DNA of 64,000 bases, from NCBI RefSeq assembly GCF_037975245.1, contig NC_092568.1, positions 62,001 to 126,000 on the forward strand, read 5' to 3'. A program made the position numbers and the translations under genes. Of this stretch, positions 666 to 48,039 are shown one piece after another; position 1 is the first letter of the stretch, and the number at the start of each line of letters is the position of its first letter. The notes under the pieces were generated by a model, which saw nothing but the letters and a program-made list of their open reading frames with translations, searched no databases and had not been told where the DNA came from. This DNA is from Apostichopus japonicus (lineage: Eukaryota > Echinodermata > Holothuroidea > Aspidochirotida > Stichopodidae).

Positions 666-3600
666 GTAAGTGATTCAATTTCCTGATGAGGAGAATTTCT
701 TATTTGAAAAATTGTGAGGTCTGTCAATACACTTACTTGCAGTGGATGGCAGAGCCAAGATTTCTGGAAATGTTTGGGAAGGGAGAGGGGGGTGGGGGTG
801 TTGAGGGTTTAGGAATATTTCCAGTAAGTGCTTCGATTTCCTGATGAGGAGAATTTCTTATTTGAAAATTGTGAGGTCTGTCAATACACTTACTTTCAGT
901 GGATGGCAGAGCCAGGATTCTGGAAAGGTTTCGGGAAGGGAGAGGGGGGTGGTTGGGGGTGTTGAGGGTTTAGGTAAGACAATTGTTTTATATCAGAACG
1001 TAGTGATGCATGTGAAAGCACTACTAACATTTAAGGAATGCGCATGCAGAAATATGTATGAAATTTGTCAACTATGTTCCTTGTTATGATAAAAAATGAA
1101 CATGGATATAATTATGCTTTTTTACCACCCAAAATTTTATTAAGGGGGGAGGGGTGGCCCATACACTCCCTGATCCACCATCGTATTAGATTTGATGTTA
1201 TTACCCAGACCGATGGCTCTAATTTGTTTGGGTCATAAGAACAAGTTCTATCAGCATCTTTTTAATATTGAATTTTATCAACATCCTTTGAAATACCATT
1301 TTCTTTGTAAAACCTCTATAATTATGTTCTGTGCGACAAAATAAAATTAACCTCTGCTGTAATGGTTGATACCACGTTATACGTAATGACCAAGGGAATG
1401 CTGTGCCATAGTTATAATTTATGGCTTCCCAGGTTATTTATATTCAGAAACAAGATTTCCCGTAATAAGATAAATTAAAGTTACCCTTGTTTCCACTCTT
1501 ATGCACTACGGTAGTCTTCCTCTCCATGTTACGTTAACATTTGTTTCTCAGTATGAGTGGATATCATTTTTCAGTCTCCTCTTTCTCTCTCCACGACAGT
1601 TCATTAGCGTGTGTGCCTTGCTGTCACTCTACATGCCACGATCCCATATGATCACCTTCTTCACAAGTACAATGTAAGTCTCTTAATTCAATGCAAGATT
1701 TCTGTACCCCTCTTCCCATCACCCTCCCCCCTTCCTCTCCACTTAGTGAATCAGCTGTTTAAATTTCATGATTAACATTATACGATAATTAAAATGTGTA
1801 AAAGTAAGTTGGCCTGACGTTTCGATCCTAGCAGGATCTTCTTCAGAGGCTAAATGACAAGTAACAGTACAGTAACAGAAGGGACAAAAACATGCACAGA
1901 ATACAGACAGGTTAATGAGCATGGTGAACACAATGAGATAGATGTAAGGGGATTAGTAGACAATGGATGGAGAGCAAAAAGCAACAGGGGAAGAGGAGAG
2001 GATAATTAAAATGCAGCACTGCATGCGAGTTAGATTCACTTGTTTTTTCACTTGTGTTTACTTAATTGTGCAGTAATTGTTCCCCTACAAATTAGTGATC
2101 AGTAGGTCATTAGGGATCAGTAGGTCAGTTGCTTGCTTACTTACTTTGTATGTGAGTATTTCTAAAGTGCTTATCATGTTACACACATGATCTGTTTTCT
2201 TGTGGAAAATGTCAAGGTGGACATTTGGGGGGAGGGGGTTGTGGGGAGGTTTAGGTTGTACTATTGAAGGAAGGGGAGAAAGGTTCAAGTAAGATGGAGA
2301 AGGTTGAGATCGGACCCTGAAATACCATTTCTTGTCATTAAGTGACACTTTTAGACTTGTTCTTGAACTATTCCTAATTGTAGGACACACGTTGCACCGT
2401 GACATAATATTTTCTTCACATCTGCTTCCATTTGCGATATTTTTTCGAGGAATTCTAAGGCCACCAATTCAACTGGATTTCTGTTTCATTCCATAATTTT
2501 GCTTTGTGAATGAAGACTTTAATTCATTTCTGTTTTAATGTCTTTGAATATTTAATTTAAAGCATATTATTTGAATGGAGTTTACTCATAAGGAGCTGTT
2601 AAAATTGTTCCAAGCTTTTAAGTTTTAAAAGAAAAATGTTAAGCTATGCAAATGTTACATAGCCTATTTATAACAATTAAAATCTATTTAAAACTACAGT
2701 ATTCTATTATCACGATCTCTACTTTAGTGAAACAATTCTTTTATTTTTCTCGATAGTTACTTTTCTCTGGCCATCTACCAATTCCTGTATCTGATCTTTG
2801 ACTATTACGGTGGCAAAGAGGCCCTGGTAGAGCTCCTTAAGGATAAAACCATCCCCCTGGCTGGCCCCCCTCTCTCCTGCTGCTGCTATTGTTGCATACC
2901 ACCTCTTCCCATGACACCGTAAGTTCGTTAAGTCATCCTTCAGTTAGCTATGTACGTCTGTCTCCAAAAATCATGTTGTCTTGTCGGTGTAGTATTAAAA
3001 GTTGAGTTGAATATGACAAAGACGGTTTGTTCACAGGTTACATCTGACACTGGCATAGGCATAGGAGGCCAAAAAACTTGGTGAAAATTCAGGCAATATG
3101 ATGAGAATTTTTGGGCACCTACTGAAAGAAAAATAATTTGCAATTTGTTTTTCAATGGTTAAACTGATATTATTATCATCATTATTATTGTAACAACGCC
3201 CCCAATACTTCTAATCAATATGGAAGTGTAATAACACGGCAAATGATTGTATGTTATTGGCCTGCAATGTAATAACCGATGCATACCTATATGATATGCA
3301 CATTAACATGTTGAACACGCGCCACGTGCGCAAAAACTTTGGTTATATTTTTCGGGCAAGTCGTTACAGCCCCCCAAATCAAATTGGGCTCCTACACCTA
3401 TGACTGGCACCTCTTGCCTTTGGTGCTCACTGTGGCATTAAAAGTCCTAACAGTGTTAATATAGACATCCTCCTGTAGGACAGGAAGGAGGGAGGGGGAG
3501 GGGGAGGGGGGAGTGTCGGAAGATACCTCAGATAGCAGAGAAATATAGTCATGTCCCTCAATGTATCGGTATCAGCTTTATCTCATTCCTTCTTCTTGTT

Positions 3601-6545
3601 TTCTTTACAGGCGAAATTTGAAGATCATCAAGAGTCTAGTCCTCCAAGTTACCATCTTGAGACCCTTGGTTTTGTTCATCGGACTGGTCACCTGGGCGGA
3701 TGGAACCTACGTTCCAGGAAACGTGAGACACCATCTTTTCATATATGTAGAATAATTGGAATACCTGTGGATGGGGGAACAGGACCAGTGTTGTTAGGTT
3801 GTCAGGCCTCTGAACCTCTGTACATAACCTCAGTGTCTTAGTGATTTGGTACCACCCACTTGGTACAATTTTTTCTATACTGTAGTGTCATGTCCTACTT
3901 CAGAGCACTCGTATTGTCAGTACGAGCAGTATTAATATCATGTTTCTATCAGATCAAGGTTATGAACTGTTTGTACTGACAATACCAGGGCGTTGAAGTA
4001 CAGTTTAGAGAGGTTTGGGAAATTGTCCCAACTGGCTATTTGATACATATGCCATATTGCATGTTCATAAGCAAGGTTTTATACATGATTCTATCATGTT
4101 CACTGATTAACTCGTGTTGTGTTTAGCTTGAAAGCTATAAAGTATAAAAGTTTAAGTAGTCACCCCCCTTCTTCCCACCTCTCCCTCCCCTACTCCCCCT
4201 CCCTTTGTACTATACCTATTGCACATCAATAAATCAAAACAAATAAATTGCTTTAAATGTTTGAACTTATAGCTTTTAACTTTCTCTGTTTTCATGTTGT
4301 TTTCTTTTGTAGCTGACATTTACGTCCATCAACCTCTACGTACAATTGCTATCCCTCTGTTCCACCCTGGTGGCCCTCTGGGGCGTCATCATGTTCGTCC
4401 GAGTCTCCAAAGGACCGCTCGCCAAGTACCGTGTGACCCCAAAGTTCCTGATTGTCCAAGTATGTCTGATCACAGTCTCTTCCCAGGCCATCATCATCGC
4501 TATCATTGGCGGATTCAACGGCATTCCCTGTACAGCAGTATTCAGATCGTTGGATAGAGGAAACTGTAAGTAAACTTCACTCTTTATCTGTTCAAATATC
4601 ATTTCCCTTTTCACCGATGCTCAAAGAACTGCGAGTGGGATTTGAATTGATTTGATTTGATTCAGCAGTTCCATATATGTTGTGCAGTCTAGCTGCATGC
4701 TTCCTAAATGGTATTGATTGAAAATTGTAATCACATCTTCAATTGAAATGTCGATTGATAGAAAAGCCATGCTCAATGTATGGTTATAAATTCAAAATTT
4801 GAGATGGCACTTAATTCCTTGATTGACACCTTTGTACTCTGGACGAAAAACTGAAATCTTGTGACAAATATCGTGGATTGAAATCTTTGCAGACACATAT
4901 CAGACTGAAATCTTTCTAAATGATATGGATTGAAATCTTGAAAGTCGCATCTCCGCTTGTAACGTTGACAGAGCAATTGAAGGTAGCCATGGTGTATGGC
5001 TATATATTCAAAATATAAGATTGAACTATATTCCTTTAATAACAGCTTGTACTCTTAAGGAAAAACAGAAATCTTTTTTTCTATGTTTTATTCTGGTTGG
5101 ATCATTGAAAGCTCAATGGCAAAATTATCAGATTTGAAACTTACAAATTAAGACTTTAAAGAGAGGTGCATGTAAAACTACTGGAAATGAAATAATAAAA
5201 TGGAAAAAACTTCTTACCCTTTATATTTTATTCCTGCAAGAATTATTTGTTACTACATCTATAGCTTGTTTGTAAAAGCTTGACTATCTTTCAAAAGTTA
5301 ACTAAGATAATTTGTGACATAGTAAAGAGGGGGTGGCAGGGGGGGGGGGGGGGAAGTCACTCCTAATCAATTATTTATTTCTCTCTACAAAAGAAAAATA
5401 TTTATCAACCTGTAACTTAAACAAGTTGAAAGAGAAAATGAATGAAGCCAAAGACTGAGTAACTTCTCCCTCTGAGATTAATTTTCTTTCATAAATATGA
5501 AAACGAGCCCTTTAAAGCAAAGTACACAAGTGAGTTGAAGCTCATGTAGAGCCTACAGAACTAGCAGAATTCATCTTGTAATTCCTGAAGTCGCTCTGTC
5601 ACATACCCTCCAAAGTTTAACCGTACTTTACATTTCTGTTGACAAGAATGCGAGTGGTTTATCCAAACAGCTTAGTTCAGAAATTTGTGGTTACGATCAA
5701 ATGGATAAAGGCTCAATGATTCAAGAAGTATGCCAGTTAATCACTTTAGCACACTAATCTATTGGAGGAGAATTCATTTTATTTTATATATAAATTTTTC
5801 TAAATTATTTATTTTTATTGGTGTTTTGAACAACCATGAGATCAAAGAAGATATGTATCATAGGCAAGGTCTTTCTGTTCTTAAAATCTAATGAGCCACC
5901 CTACAGCAAAGGCTGCCTTTGCTCCTGTCATGATTTGGTTTAGAAGAAATTGGAAGGTAGGGAGATTGTGGAGGAGGGGGGGGGGGGGGGTTGAAGGAGG
6001 TAGGAAGGTGTCATTTCAGAGGAAATGTTGTTTGAGAGGGCAGGGGAAGGGTGGGGAAAGAGGTATCACTTTAGAGAGAAATGTAGTTTGAGAGGTTAAG
6101 GCGGGTGGAAGGAGGTAGGAAGGTCAGATATATGTGTTCTGCATGATAAGGTATGCACTGTTCTATTATAACACCCCCTCCCCATCTCTTGTTCCTGACA
6201 GACATTAATGATATGCTACTGGTGATAGAGATGTTCCTCTTCAGTGGGGTGTCCCGTTTAGTTTTCCGATCTCAGCACGGAAACACCGGGACCTTGCTCG
6301 ACGACAACCTCCCAAACATGGAATCAGCCTTGCCAGCAGAGACCAAGAAAGAGTTGGAAATGATGTCCAACAACAATGGCAACACTAACCACAACAATAA
6401 CTCTGTCCTCACCCACGGATACTCTAAAGAAGATGAGGCGGAAGTCTCCGTGGTAACCGACGGCAAACTCCAAGACATCGTCGCACTCTCAAGTAGCGAT
6501 GTCCGTCTCAATAGTCGAACAGTCATTCACCAGAGTAATATTTAA
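505..6545 (+). CDS. SLC51A-like: Organic solute transporter subunit alpha, copy 1 (5'-truncated by window edge)
   Basis: Coding exons are 505-665, 1600-1673, 2757-2918, 3611-3722, 4313-4565 and 6202-6545 (stop TAA), giving 367 residues plus a split first codon. The first coding exon (about 48 residues in copy 2) lies before the window. Family landmarks seen are SRRKVRLL after TM1, LYMPRS in TM2, GGKEALVELLKD after TM3, the cysteine run SCCCYCC in the TM3-TM4 loop, and YVPGN before TM5. OST-alpha is a seven-pass plasma-membrane protein that, with single-pass OST-beta, moves bile acids, steroids and other organic solutes by facilitated transport. That role is family knowledge; whether this copy needs a beta partner is unknown. 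The tail after TM7 is about 95 residues, Asn- and Ser-rich (NNNGNTNHNNNS), and longer than in vertebrates. All introns are GT-AG. Confidence 0.93.
652..974 (+). repeat. Tandem duplication (about 158 bp x 2) spanning an exon-intron junction
   Basis: Units 652-809 and 810-974 are near-identical. Each starts TAGGAATATTTCCAGTAAGT and ends in a G-rich run plus GTTGAGGGTTTAGG. The unit includes the last 14 bases of exon 2 and its donor, so a second intact donor sits at 824. Using it would add 158 nt, which shifts the frame and meets a stop soon after 665. Confidence 0.93.
1600..1673 (+). CDS. OST-alpha copy 1, exon 3 (TM2)
   Basis: The acceptor ends CGACAG at 1599 and the donor is GTAAGT at 1674. 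The exon is 74 nt, exactly the length of its copy 2 counterpart, entering in phase 0 and leaving in phase 2. It encodes FISVCALLSLYMPRSHMITF, where the MPRS turn corresponds to the WIPRS motif of vertebrate OST-alpha. Confidence 0.9.
1765..2410 (-). mobile_element. Penelope-like element terminal fragment (candidate)
   Basis: This intronic segment contains a hammerhead-ribozyme-like motif of the kind carried in Penelope-like retroelement terminal repeats. No reverse transcriptase or GIY-YIG coding remains. The limits are approximate and the assignment rests mainly on the ribozyme motif. Confidence 0.4.
1812..1850 (-). ncRNA. Hammerhead ribozyme motif (minimal, dimer type)
   Basis: Read on the minus strand: stem I strand GCCT (1850-1847), core CTGAAGA (fits CUGANGA), an extra A, stem II GATCC / loop TGCTA / GGATC, core GAAA, then CGTC with cleavage triplet GTC, then AGGC (to 1812), which pairs with GCCT to close stem I. 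Stem III would be the palindrome ACGT, which can form only between two copies, as proposed for ribozymes of Penelope-like elements. The extra A beside stem II and the 4-bp stem I leave activity uncertain. Confidence 0.6.
2757..2918 (+). CDS. OST-alpha copy 1, exon 4 (TM3 and Cys-rich loop)
   Basis: The acceptor ends GATAG at 2756 and the donor is GTAAGT at 2919. The exon is 162 nt, the same as in copy 2. It encodes TM3 (YFSLAIYQFLYLIFDYYGG), then KEALVELLKD and a loop with six cysteines in SCCCYCC plus the following stretch. In vertebrate OST-alpha this cysteine cluster is conserved. Confidence 0.93.
3611..3722 (+). CDS. OST-alpha copy 1, exon 5 (TM4)
   Basis: The acceptor ends TTTACAG at 3610 and the donor is GTGAGA at 3723. 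The exon encodes a basic start (RNLKIIK), then TM4 (ILRPLVLFIGLVTW) and YVPGN. It is 112 nt, against 124 nt in copy 2; the four missing codons fall at the 5' end. Confidence 0.9.
4313..4565 (+). CDS. OST-alpha copy 1, exon 6 (TM5-TM6)
   Basis: The acceptor ends TTTTGTAG at 4312 and the donor is GTAAGT at 4566. The exon is 253 nt, the same as in copy 2. It encodes TM5 (LLSLCSTLVALWGVIMFV), the RVSKGPLAKYRVTPKF linker and TM6 (LIVQVCLITVSSQAIIIAII), then GFNGIPCTAVF. Confidence 0.93.
4764..5076 (+). repeat. Diverged direct repeat in copy 1 intron
   Basis: About 90 bp beginning GCCATG and ending CAGAAATCTT / CTGAAATCTT occurs at 4768-4859 and again, diverged, at 4987-5074. Short GATTGAAATCTT units lie between them. 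The repeat is intronic and no coding was seen. Confidence 0.6.
5340..5353 (+). repeat. Poly-G tract
   Basis: An uninterrupted run of G follows GGGGGTGGCA inside the long last intron of copy 1. Similar G- or C-runs recur through the window. Confidence 0.9.
6202..6545 (+). CDS. OST-alpha copy 1, last coding exon (TM7 and tail)
   Basis: The acceptor ends CCTGACAG at 6201. The split codon gives Tyr, then INDMLLVIEMFLFSGVSRLVF (TM7), then a hydrophilic tail rich in Asn, Ser and acidic residues to TAA at 6543-6545. The tail has no visible similarity to that of copy 2. Confidence 0.92.
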
Positions 6546-23075: not shown

Positions 23076-23403
23076 GTTACATCTTTTGACGAAAAATCGA
23101 TCTTAAACAATGCACAAGGATAAGCCAATATTTAGGCGGTTGCCACGATTATGATTAAGTTCACGTATTTCATTACTAACTGATAAACCAGCTTGGAAAA
23201 CTTCAGGATTATTTTTTGGTTGGCTTAATAGAACTTTCAGATGATCGTTAATAGCATTCTTAACGACAGAGTTTACATCATGATTTTGATTAACAATCGA
23301 TATAAGAAAGAATATAATATATAATAAAATAATGACGATAATGGTGAGGGACTGGTGTGTGGAGGGGGTTAGTAGTGGTGGAGTTGATGGGATGATATGA
23401 TGG

Positions 23404-39100: not shown

Positions 39101-42100
39101 CCAAGCTTCTCCTCATTTTCTTTCCCACTCGCCTCCTCATTCGGCCCTTCATTCGCCTCCTCACTCTCATCCTCATTCCGTTACTGATTCTCCTCTATAT
39201 GCTCCTCCTCATTCTTCTCATTCTCCTCAGCCTTCTCGTTCTACTTGTACACGCAATACTCTCCCTTAGTCTCCTCCCATTATCCTCCTCATCATGCTTC
39301 TCTCGTGTAGCCTCGTCTCTGATCTGCGGATCTACATAGTGTACCCACCCCTAAGATGGGGTTCTAAATGTGGTTATCCTCCTCGACTCACCAACTTTTT
39401 CTCTCTTTTTCCTTTCAATATTTGTCAACTATATTTGATCTTCATACGTCATAGAAATTGTCATCAAATACACCAAATTAATCTTACTTCAAAGAAATCT
39501 TTACATTCTTTCCATTTTTGGTCTAAATTTTCGTGTTTTTTTCCCCTTCTTTTCCAAACAGACCCACATACAAGAAATTTATCCGTGCCATCCGGTTTAT
39601 GGTGATTCAGACAGCAATATTCAAACCGATGATGTTATTTATTGGCGGGATGCTATGGAGTAACAATAATTACACGCCAGGAAATGTAAGTCATTCACGT
39701 CGAACTTTACAATACATAAACATGAACCGTTCAAACATTCTTCCTTTCATTTTACGAAGAAATAATAAGGAAACCATATGCGGTTAGCGCGGTTCAAATA
39801 CTAGAATTTTATAAACATCCTGCCCTGTTTAATGGTCTGGTATATATGTAACCATTGAATGGCAAATGTGAATGCATAAAACATGCCGATCACTATAATA
39901 TCAATTGGAGACTTAGAGTGATGTGTTTTCTTCTCCCCCAATAACCCCCCCTCCCCCACTAACCCCACCCTCATCCGTCCACGTCTCCTCTCCCCTCCCC
40001 TCCCCTACTCATGACGTTAGACTTCTAGAGAAATTAGTACAACTCATATAAGCAACTTGTGTGCTTCAAAAGACATTTTCAATATAACGTTTAATTGGTT
40101 AAAATAGTTGCCATGTCTTCTTGATCCGATTCAACCATGTTACTTTTTCTCTTCATCGAAAAAAAAAAGATTAAAATTAGCTAGTTGCATTGCCTCCAGT
40201 AATAGTTGCAATCATGTATTCAGCCCAGATTCCAATATGCAAAGTAGACTGGGCTAGGTTAATCTGCTATGAAAGTATGGCAGGTCGATAAGTGATTCTC
40301 TATATAAGTGTTTTTTTACCTAAAAGCAATAGACCTTCTCAAAATTGTAATTTTTATGTTTTGACATGAATGCGACACATAAGTGACAGTGAAGTTTTAC
40401 TAAGATTAAAATGGGTAGGTACAATATACGCTGTATATGTCACATGCTACTTGTTTGCTAGGGAATTCAAACATATAGCCATCATTGTTCATGTACGTGA
40501 TGGAGATAATTGTCATGGACAAATTTTCGAAACAGTTGAGAAAAATCACATTCCATTTGGGAGATATCACCGATTTATTGTTCCTTCACACACATGGATG
40601 AAGACTTGATCAAGTCTAAATATGACGTCATCGAGCCACATTATTTTTTTTTTTTTAAATAGTTCCTTGAAATCTTCTGTAATGGAGATGGGCTTTGGAA
40701 ATGTTGCGTGTAAAATATTGCAGCGCTTTATATGGCCTAATAATTGCATTGGTTTCAATATCAGCAATGTTAACAATTTACCTGATATAATGTTAACTTG
40801 TTGCCTTGAAATATAATATGGAAAGAAAAGCAGAAGGTTTCAGATCCTGGTGCATGGCACTATAATATCACAGATTGAAATATGACGGCTCCCAGACACG
40901 ACCTCTCCCAAACGGAATATGTTGTTCATCACCATGGACTCTGCATGATAATCATAGAACAGGGTTGTCCAACCTACGGCCCGCGGGCCACAGTCCGGCC
41001 CGCCGCAGGGTTGCGTCCGGCCCGCCAGAGATGCACTACGGTGTGAAATTTATTGAGCAGATTTATTGATAACAATTTGAAGCTATATAATCAATCATTC
41101 GAACCTTCTGGGTCCAAAAAAAAATGCATACAGGTCAGTTTGTGTGACACTCTCTCAGCGGAGGGGAGGGGGGGGGGGAACCGGCTGGACTTTATTTATC
41201 TGTTTTATCAGGAAGGAAAATAAATCAGTGCGCTCCGCGCGCAGTGCTTACATTTTGTTGCCTTGGGCTTCGCGCAAACTATCGAGCGTAGGGTTCATGC
41301 GGCCCCCTCCTTCATCATAACCATTCCATGTGGCCCTCCTCTGCAAAAGGTTGGACAACCCTGTCATAGAATGATGGGTTGGGCTTGTGTCTCCTTAAGA
41401 GGTTTCCAAATGATCTTTAAACATTATTTTATCCACATTTCACAGTTCAGTGGCTCGGATCCGTGGCTGGTGATGGAAATCATGATGCTGTTTTCATCGA
41501 TGTTTGCCCTGAACGGTATCATTATTATGTTCCGTATATCCAAGGACACCATGAAGGAATTTCATCTGGTGCCTAAGTTTTTCACAGTTCAGCTGACCCT
41601 CATCTTGACCAGCGTGCAGGGTTTTACCATCAGTCTTATTGTGTACTTCGGAGGAATTGCATGTAGGCCACCATTCATCCCGCCAATGAGGGGATTGTGT
41701 AAGTCCAACGGTTGCATATTTAAAATTTCAAAATAATGAATATTCATGATTAAGTTTGACATATTTTATCATTTACGATGACATACGAGAGTGTTTGATA
41801 TTATCTTTGGGAGTTGATTTAGTTGGTATTGGCAGGAAAATAAATTATTTCGTTTTCTGTGTCGTTTATATATGTACATTGTGCACACAGACACACATAC
41901 AAAGATTTCCTTGTTATTCCCCTTCCCCCCCCCCTTTCTCGAGTATATGGTTGTCAGACGGGGAAGCGGTAGGTAGGGGGCATGCTGAGTGTATAATTGA
42001 GCGGAACATCTAATTTAATTCTGTCACCATTTGCTACCAATGTTGTTTTATTCTTATCACTCATGTTTACAGATTACGATAAATTCCTCAACATTTTTGA

Positions 42101-45982: not shown

Positions 45983-46067
45983 CCTTCGATAGCTCAGTTG
46001 GTAGAGCGGGAGACTGTAGTTAGATAAAGTCATCTCTAGGTCGCTGGTTCGATTCCGGCTCGAAGGA
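45983..46067 (+). tRNA. tRNA-Tyr: tRNA-Tyr (anticodon GTA) with 12-nt intron
   Basis: The acceptor CCTTCGA pairs fully with TCGAAGG (46060-46066); the discriminator is A. The D arm is GCTC...GAGC, and the anticodon stem GGAGA / TCTCT flanks the loop CTGTAG-A. The anticodon GTA is at 46016-46018. The intron 46020-46031 follows position 37, as in eukaryotic tRNA-Tyr genes. The T arm contains GGTTCGATTCC (B box). Spliced length is 73 nt before CCA. A T6 run at 46071-46076 is a pol III terminator. All stems are intact, so it is probably functional. Confidence 0.96.
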
Positions 46068-46076: not shown

Positions 46077-46335
46077 GCGAAATTCCAAGACATTTAGAAC
46101 ATAGTAGTCTTCATAGCTTTTGACTTGTTGACTAAGCAGGACTTCATATCAAGCAATCATAAAGAAAGGTAAAACATATTCTTCAGCGATGGTGAGAAGA
46201 CAGTGTGTCTATATAAATAACTTGATAAAGTGGAAAATCATCTACATTTATTAATCAATCATTTACGAGTCTAAACTGGTGAAGAATATCTGGAACGTTT
46301 TGGTAAATTACTCTTAAGTTTTTTGCAACAAGTGT

Positions 46336-47233: not shown

Positions 47234-48039
47234 TTGCAATTGAATTTCTCTGATATATATAGAAAGAGTGCCCTCAAAATGACGCCCTATATTTTGCAAG
47301 GACGTAAAAATGGAATTACGCCCTCTTTTTGTTGCGCCCCATACATTTCACTAAATAGCATGTCATGTGAATGCCAATGCAAACACAATCACCACCCTCC
47401 CCCACCCCCTCCCCCACCCTAAATAAAACATGAGTAAGCTAGTTTTCACAAGTCTCCCTTTGGGTTTTTCATTTAGTTCTTCATCTTTTTCTTCTCACTT
47501 TCATTTGCATCTGGAAAGTGACTTGTGTCAGTGCATGACACACACATACACACCAGAAAGTTGTTTTAGTAAACTCTGAGATTGATTTAATTTCAATTCA
47601 ATAGGATTATCTTTATTAAGCTAATCAAAAAGAAATAATACAGGCAGGGGTAAGGGTAGAGGTAATATAGGGGGGGGAGAACTTACGTGATCTTTGTGTA
47701 GGTGATTACCTCACATGGGGAAGTTATATGTGACAGAACTAAAATCAGAAAATTTCATTTTGGCATTTAGTATTTCCGTTACGGTCCACAGGTAATATCC
47801 TTCCATCAATTTATTTCGCGTTGCGTCGATTCGGATACTACTAATCTGGAGTTCATTCATACTTAGTAAAGATTCCTAAATCCTATTGGTCCATTCAGGT
47901 CAGCTGACAGTGGTTAATCCTGTGAGTAACGCACGGTAAAATTACGGGGCATCACTTTAATAAATCTTTGGTTATATGTAACCAAAAATGTTTTGTTTTA
48001 TGATTTTTCCCCCACACAAATGGTAGTGTATAAATGAAC

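Follow-up and report, generated by a model that had tools for sequence, protein, structure and literature searches.

A repeat-flanked 204-bp segment in a predicted OST-alpha-like intron, with a minimal type I hammerhead motif near one end

A minimal hammerhead motif with complete core letters is present on the minus strand at 1812..1850 of the window, the 64-kb stretch of DNA analysed here. What this analysis adds is its position in a 204-bp segment between the two copies of a perfect 13-bp direct repeat: the predicted cleavage site is 19 nt away from the 3′-end of this segment. The motif probably represents the hammerhead carried by a short Penelope-type retroelement insertion. Earlier descriptions present such hammerheads as common in animal genomes, and we regard this one as real but ordinary.

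Structure of the motif

The motif was recognized by sequence inspection and by pattern and descriptor matches. Read from 1850 to 1812 on the minus strand, its letters are GCCT-CTGAAGA-A-GATCCT-gct-AGGATC-GAAA-CG-T-C-AGGC. They comprise stem I (GCCT/AGGC, 4 bp, 1850-1847/1815-1812), the CTGAAGA core (1846-1840), an extra A (1839) located between A9 and G10.1, stem II (1838-1833/1829-1824, with its loop at 1832-1830), the GAAA core (1823-1820) and a predicted cleavage site between 1816 (C17) and 1815. Both stems appear in the predicted minimum-free-energy fold. Stem II, which is itself palindromic, can be drawn as 6 bp with a 3-nt loop or as 5 bp with a larger loop. In hammerhead numbering, we take the core positions to be C3 U4 G5 A6 N7 G8 A9, G12 A13 A14, A15.1-U16.1 and H17=C.

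The motif has the core CUGANGA...GAAA...UH, stems I and II, and an open end at stem I, as expected of a type I hammerhead, and a stem III inside one molecule is absent. All that is found in its place is CG between A15.1 and U16.1. The resulting self-complementary ACGT (1817..1820) is the sole possible stem III and could provide 4 bp between two copies. An earlier sequence-only reading of this DNA had named the two core boxes, the cleavage triplet, stem I, a 5-bp stem II, the extra A beside it and the ACGT palindrome as the only stem III, and each of these parts was found again on inspection.

Rfam searches, chance matches and fold energies

The same reading had listed the lack of a hammerhead model hit as one of its two refuting outcomes, and formally this outcome occurred. 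No hammerhead family matched in the window at the gathering score, and the hammerhead models gave no match to 1500-2200 or to the 204-bp segment at E-values up to 10, their sensitivity to minimal forms not being established. This negative result was weighed lightly because the motif is devoid of stem III. The Rfam match that does cover the motif comes from a CRISPR repeat model; its score of 18 bits stays far below the cut-off of 37, and it is generic hairpin similarity.

A control with viral contigs chosen for core letters and a good stem II shows only how strict the curated cut-offs are, since these contigs are not known ribozymes. Five of them (L072, L073, L008, L061 and L107) had no Rfam hammerhead match at the gathering score. 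When L061, L120, L072 and L073 were scored by E-value, three of the four showed weak hammerhead scores (E 0.0005-0.48, all below the gathering score) and L072 showed none. The core matches in L061, L073 and L120, which combine a stem II of 5-6 bp with these sub-cut-off scores, are possible hammerheads; L120 carries three core copies sharing one stem II.

To describe the motif as a pattern, a descriptor was composed after the motif was known; it requires the core, at least 4 bp in stem II, where 0-1 extra nt are allowed, and at least 3 bp in stem I. Over both strands of the window it found one site, the motif. Across 500 dinucleotide shuffles the loose descriptor produced 0.012 matches per shuffled window and the strict descriptor produced none in total, and plain patterns taken from the motif matched once each in the window and not at all in 100 shuffles. 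Real DNA was used as a further control by scanning for the bare core in viral (33 and at least 123 matches) and prokaryotic DNA (at least 118), with one contig, L015, included in two sets. Among the 274 viral and prokaryotic core matches listed, stem II reached at least 4 bp in 24 and stem I at least 4 bp in 8, and none reached 4 bp in stem II together with 3 bp in stem I. Of the viral contigs that share letters after the cut site, L124 and L121 were inspected; stem II is absent there, and these matches were judged to be due to chance.

The fold energy of the motif is modestly below that of shuffled sequences (z -1.63), with 14 of 200 shuffles folding equally well. The unconstrained dimer of the motif adopts a long duplex at -30.8 kcal/mol, the double hammerhead fold of the dimer reaches -21.3, and two monomers sum to -23.0. 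The double hammerhead is not favoured by these energies.

These data bear on the possibility that the motif is a chance or decayed look-alike, a hairpin beside core-like letters with no ribozyme ancestry. The missing Rfam hammerhead match, the CRISPR model that scores in its place, the extra A, the short stem I and a fold only modestly better than shuffles are all compatible with such an origin. Nonetheless, we find it very improbable: the shuffled windows hardly ever yield the loose pattern and never the strict one, none of the core matches listed elsewhere has both stems, and the motif is placed near the end of a repeat-bounded segment.

The repeat-bounded segment

The segment that contains the motif extends over 204 bp (1797..2000, minus strand). 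It is bounded by two exact copies of GATAATTAAAATG, to which no strand is assigned, at 1784..1796 (left) and 2001..2013 (right), the presumed target-site duplication. The repeat is AT-rich, with G or C at 2 of 13 positions, and contains ATT. On the element strand the segment ends in ...CTTACTTTTACA, and the distance of 19 nt from the predicted cut to this end holds if the repeat marks the end. Local shuffles produced a repeat of at least 13 bp across the motif in 1 of 3000 trials when 200 nt on each side were shuffled and in 3 of 3000 when 300 nt were. When positions were drawn at random from the window, an exact repeat of at least 13 bp surrounded 149 of 5000, tandem arrays counted, and the window includes a few other isolated direct-repeat pairs, e.g. 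5993/6108, 41438/41580 and 47914/48164. The 13-bp repeat is suggestive of a retroelement insertion with target-site duplication and is not proof of it. The pair at 47914 and 48164 is an isolated 17-bp direct repeat starting TTAATCCTGTGAG, its copies 250 bp apart, and could flank another short insertion.

Base composition changes in the same region. The GC skew in 100-nt windows is -0.60 at 1650-1749 and -0.54 at 1700-1799, lies between +0.10 and +0.57 within the segment, and is +0.06 at 2000-2099, so that at this 100-nt resolution the skew shifts around the segment. The 64-kb window holds no further copies of the segment except 13- and 23-nt matches (E 0.43), and the motif has no cis partner there. 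An open frame on the minus strand (1743-1952) runs through the motif and beyond the segment end; its peptide (...SEEDPARIETSGQLTFT...) had no Pfam match, and the frame could be where an element ORF starts or could have arisen by chance.

The Pfam scan covered 18 ORFs of the window, namely 13 of the 19 ORFs of at least 115 aa and 5 shorter ones; the six other ORFs of at least 115 aa start at 23103, 23290, 38639, 38685, 46890 and 55593. It returned OST-alpha pieces and one sub-threshold CENP-I match, and neither a reverse transcriptase nor a GIY-YIG domain was matched among the 18 ORFs. Because of this result, and because 204 bp leaves no room for a reverse transcriptase, we refer to the segment as a Penelope-type sequence and not as a Penelope-like element.

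Proposed origin of the segment

The best reading of the segment is a 5′-truncated copy or a solo pseudo-LTR of Penelope type. In the pathway that we propose, reverse transcription of a parent-element transcript would have begun about 19 nt 3′ of the ribozyme cleavage site, and the copy would have stopped after 204 nt. It would then have been inserted antisense to the gene at an AT-rich spot of the OST-alpha-like intron, generating the 13-bp target duplication. Where a parent element has tandem copies, two motifs could pair ACGU with ACGU to form a 4-bp stem III, and the RNA would be cut between the units. With one copy at this locus, the motif would be an inert passenger. It is most likely inert because it is a single antisense copy that has no partner in 64 kb. 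The motif, the repeat and the single copy in the window are observed; the insertion event with its ends, the Penelope parentage, cleavage as a dimer and inertness are inferred.

Rotifer Penelope pseudo-LTRs are about 180-220 bp long and have 8-10-bp duplications in the cases seen, and several solo pseudo-LTRs described in the same report have no target duplications (PMC3846280). Since the rotifer solo forms are found without duplications, the 5′-truncated copy fits the repeat better than the solo pseudo-LTR.

Many metazoan genomes are reported to contain minimal type I hammerheads by the thousands, with stem III usually missing; they are described as mostly dispersed in non-coding DNA, with some in Penelope pseudo-LTRs, and may cleave as dimers (PMC7761336). 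According to the same account, their role in Penelope-type elements was unknown as of 2020 (PMC7761336). The motif shares with the minimal hammerheads of Penelope-like elements (Cervera & De la Pena 2014; Lunse, Weinberg & Breaker 2017, as presented in PMC7761336) the type I order, the lack of stem III, the presumed dimer cleavage and the dispersed non-coding location. It seems to differ from them in the extra A that follows A9, and it has no Penelope ORF attached. The assignment to a minimal, dimer-type hammerhead of Penelope-like kind made in the sequence-only reading is thus borne out in part: the architecture fits well and the 13-bp repeat adds evidence, whereas Rfam is silent, the window holds a single copy and none of the 18 scanned ORFs encodes a recognizable reverse transcriptase.

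The Anolis Penelope-like element PAc (Poseidon) carries a hammerhead at the start of its ORF, its reverse transcription begins 111-118 nt into the ORF, the point at which its copies end, and its target preference is for AT-rich DNA with 5′-ATT-3′ (PMC11167929). Insertion in vitro does not require cleavage by the PAc hammerhead; such cleavage was observed only when protein was added (PMC11167929). PAc and the motif share stems I and II with loop II, a position upstream of the 3′-end of the copy, and an AT-rich target, presumed here from the repeat; the segment ends 19 nt past the cut, in contrast to 85-92 nt in PAc, as computed from the published numbers (PMC11167929). In Terminons, the hammerhead is described as the 3′-terminal fold (PMC6431247).

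The extra A alone does not bar activity, because an A occupies this place in a hammerhead of chrysanthemum chlorotic mottle viroid too. Stem III of that viroid RNA is not known to be reduced in the way that it is in the motif. Similar motifs bearing the same extra A may occur in teleost repeats. In the plus hammerhead of the viroid, the unpaired A lies between A9 and G10.1, as it does here, and is reported to lower trans cleavage moderately (PMC3705267). A further proposal would be that the segment represents a short, free-standing, non-autonomous family with a hammerhead at its end, mobilised in trans by a Penelope-type enzyme. Its A10-bearing hammerhead would then be a variant of the published minimal class restricted to one lineage; we put this forward tentatively and with more doubt than belief.

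The segment could instead be a monomer of a metazoan non-LTR retrozyme, a non-autonomous circular-RNA element, and not a Penelope sequence. Its 204 bp and its type I hammerhead are within the range of about 150-450 bp given for retrozymes, and the amphibian retrozymes described likewise have a weak stem III and depend on dimers (PMC7229834). The retrozymes presented in that source are tandem repeats, many with loop-loop contacts (PMC7229834), whereas the window has a single copy and no tandem array of units in this size range, and the motif is without any stem III. In addition, the 204-nt RNA is not unusually structured: it folds no better than shuffles (z +1.18), with 176 of 200 equally good. 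We therefore regard a retrozyme origin as unlikely.

The Penelope-type insertion would provide one likely bounded example of the origin of dispersed minimal hammerheads, in which they are the ends of short, target-duplicating retroelement copies and not free ribozymes. With its intact core and probable ends, the copy could serve as a test substrate; it leaves current views unchanged.

The host gene and other features of the window

The host gene is OST-alpha-like as judged from its predicted exons. An exon upstream of the intron was read by eye at 1600..1673 on the plus strand and is followed by the donor gtaagt at 1674. Further downstream on the same strand, an ORF stretch with an OST-alpha-like exon (4313..4570) matches PF03619 with an E-value of 5.8e-13. 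The two exons that precede the intron, joined by eye, match PF03619 only weakly, with an E-value of 0.0081 that is below the cut-off, and show weak matches to three other families as well; for the next exon, whose peptide was also read by eye, Pfam gave no match. From the exon end at 1673 and the donor at 1674 it follows that the motif is intronic and antisense.

A further alternative is a retained host-function ribozyme, for instance one that cuts an antisense transcript of the OST-alpha locus. The core is complete, and conserved amniote hammerheads, some of them in human introns (RECK, CTCL), have been described (PMC7229834; PMC6155905). We nevertheless consider such a function extremely improbable, as the motif is antisense to the gene, the window offers no second copy that could act in cis to complete stem III, and the 13-bp repeat, being perfect, points to a fairly recent insertion.

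Other features were observed in the window. A tandem duplication at 652-974, at the end of an OST-alpha-like exon, has a period of 157 bp, 2.0 copies and 92% matches, and it repeats the splice-donor context ATATTTCCAGTAAGTG, with copies near 657 and 815. A second OST-alpha-like stretch at 41224-41733 (PF03619, E 1.3e-12) indicates that the window may hold tandem paralogues. At 45983-46067 there is an Rfam tRNA match (58.7 bits) that was missed by ARAGORN and that looks by eye like an intron-bearing tRNA-Tyr; a degraded second tRNA copy, also recognized by eye, begins at 46335, about 350 bp downstream.
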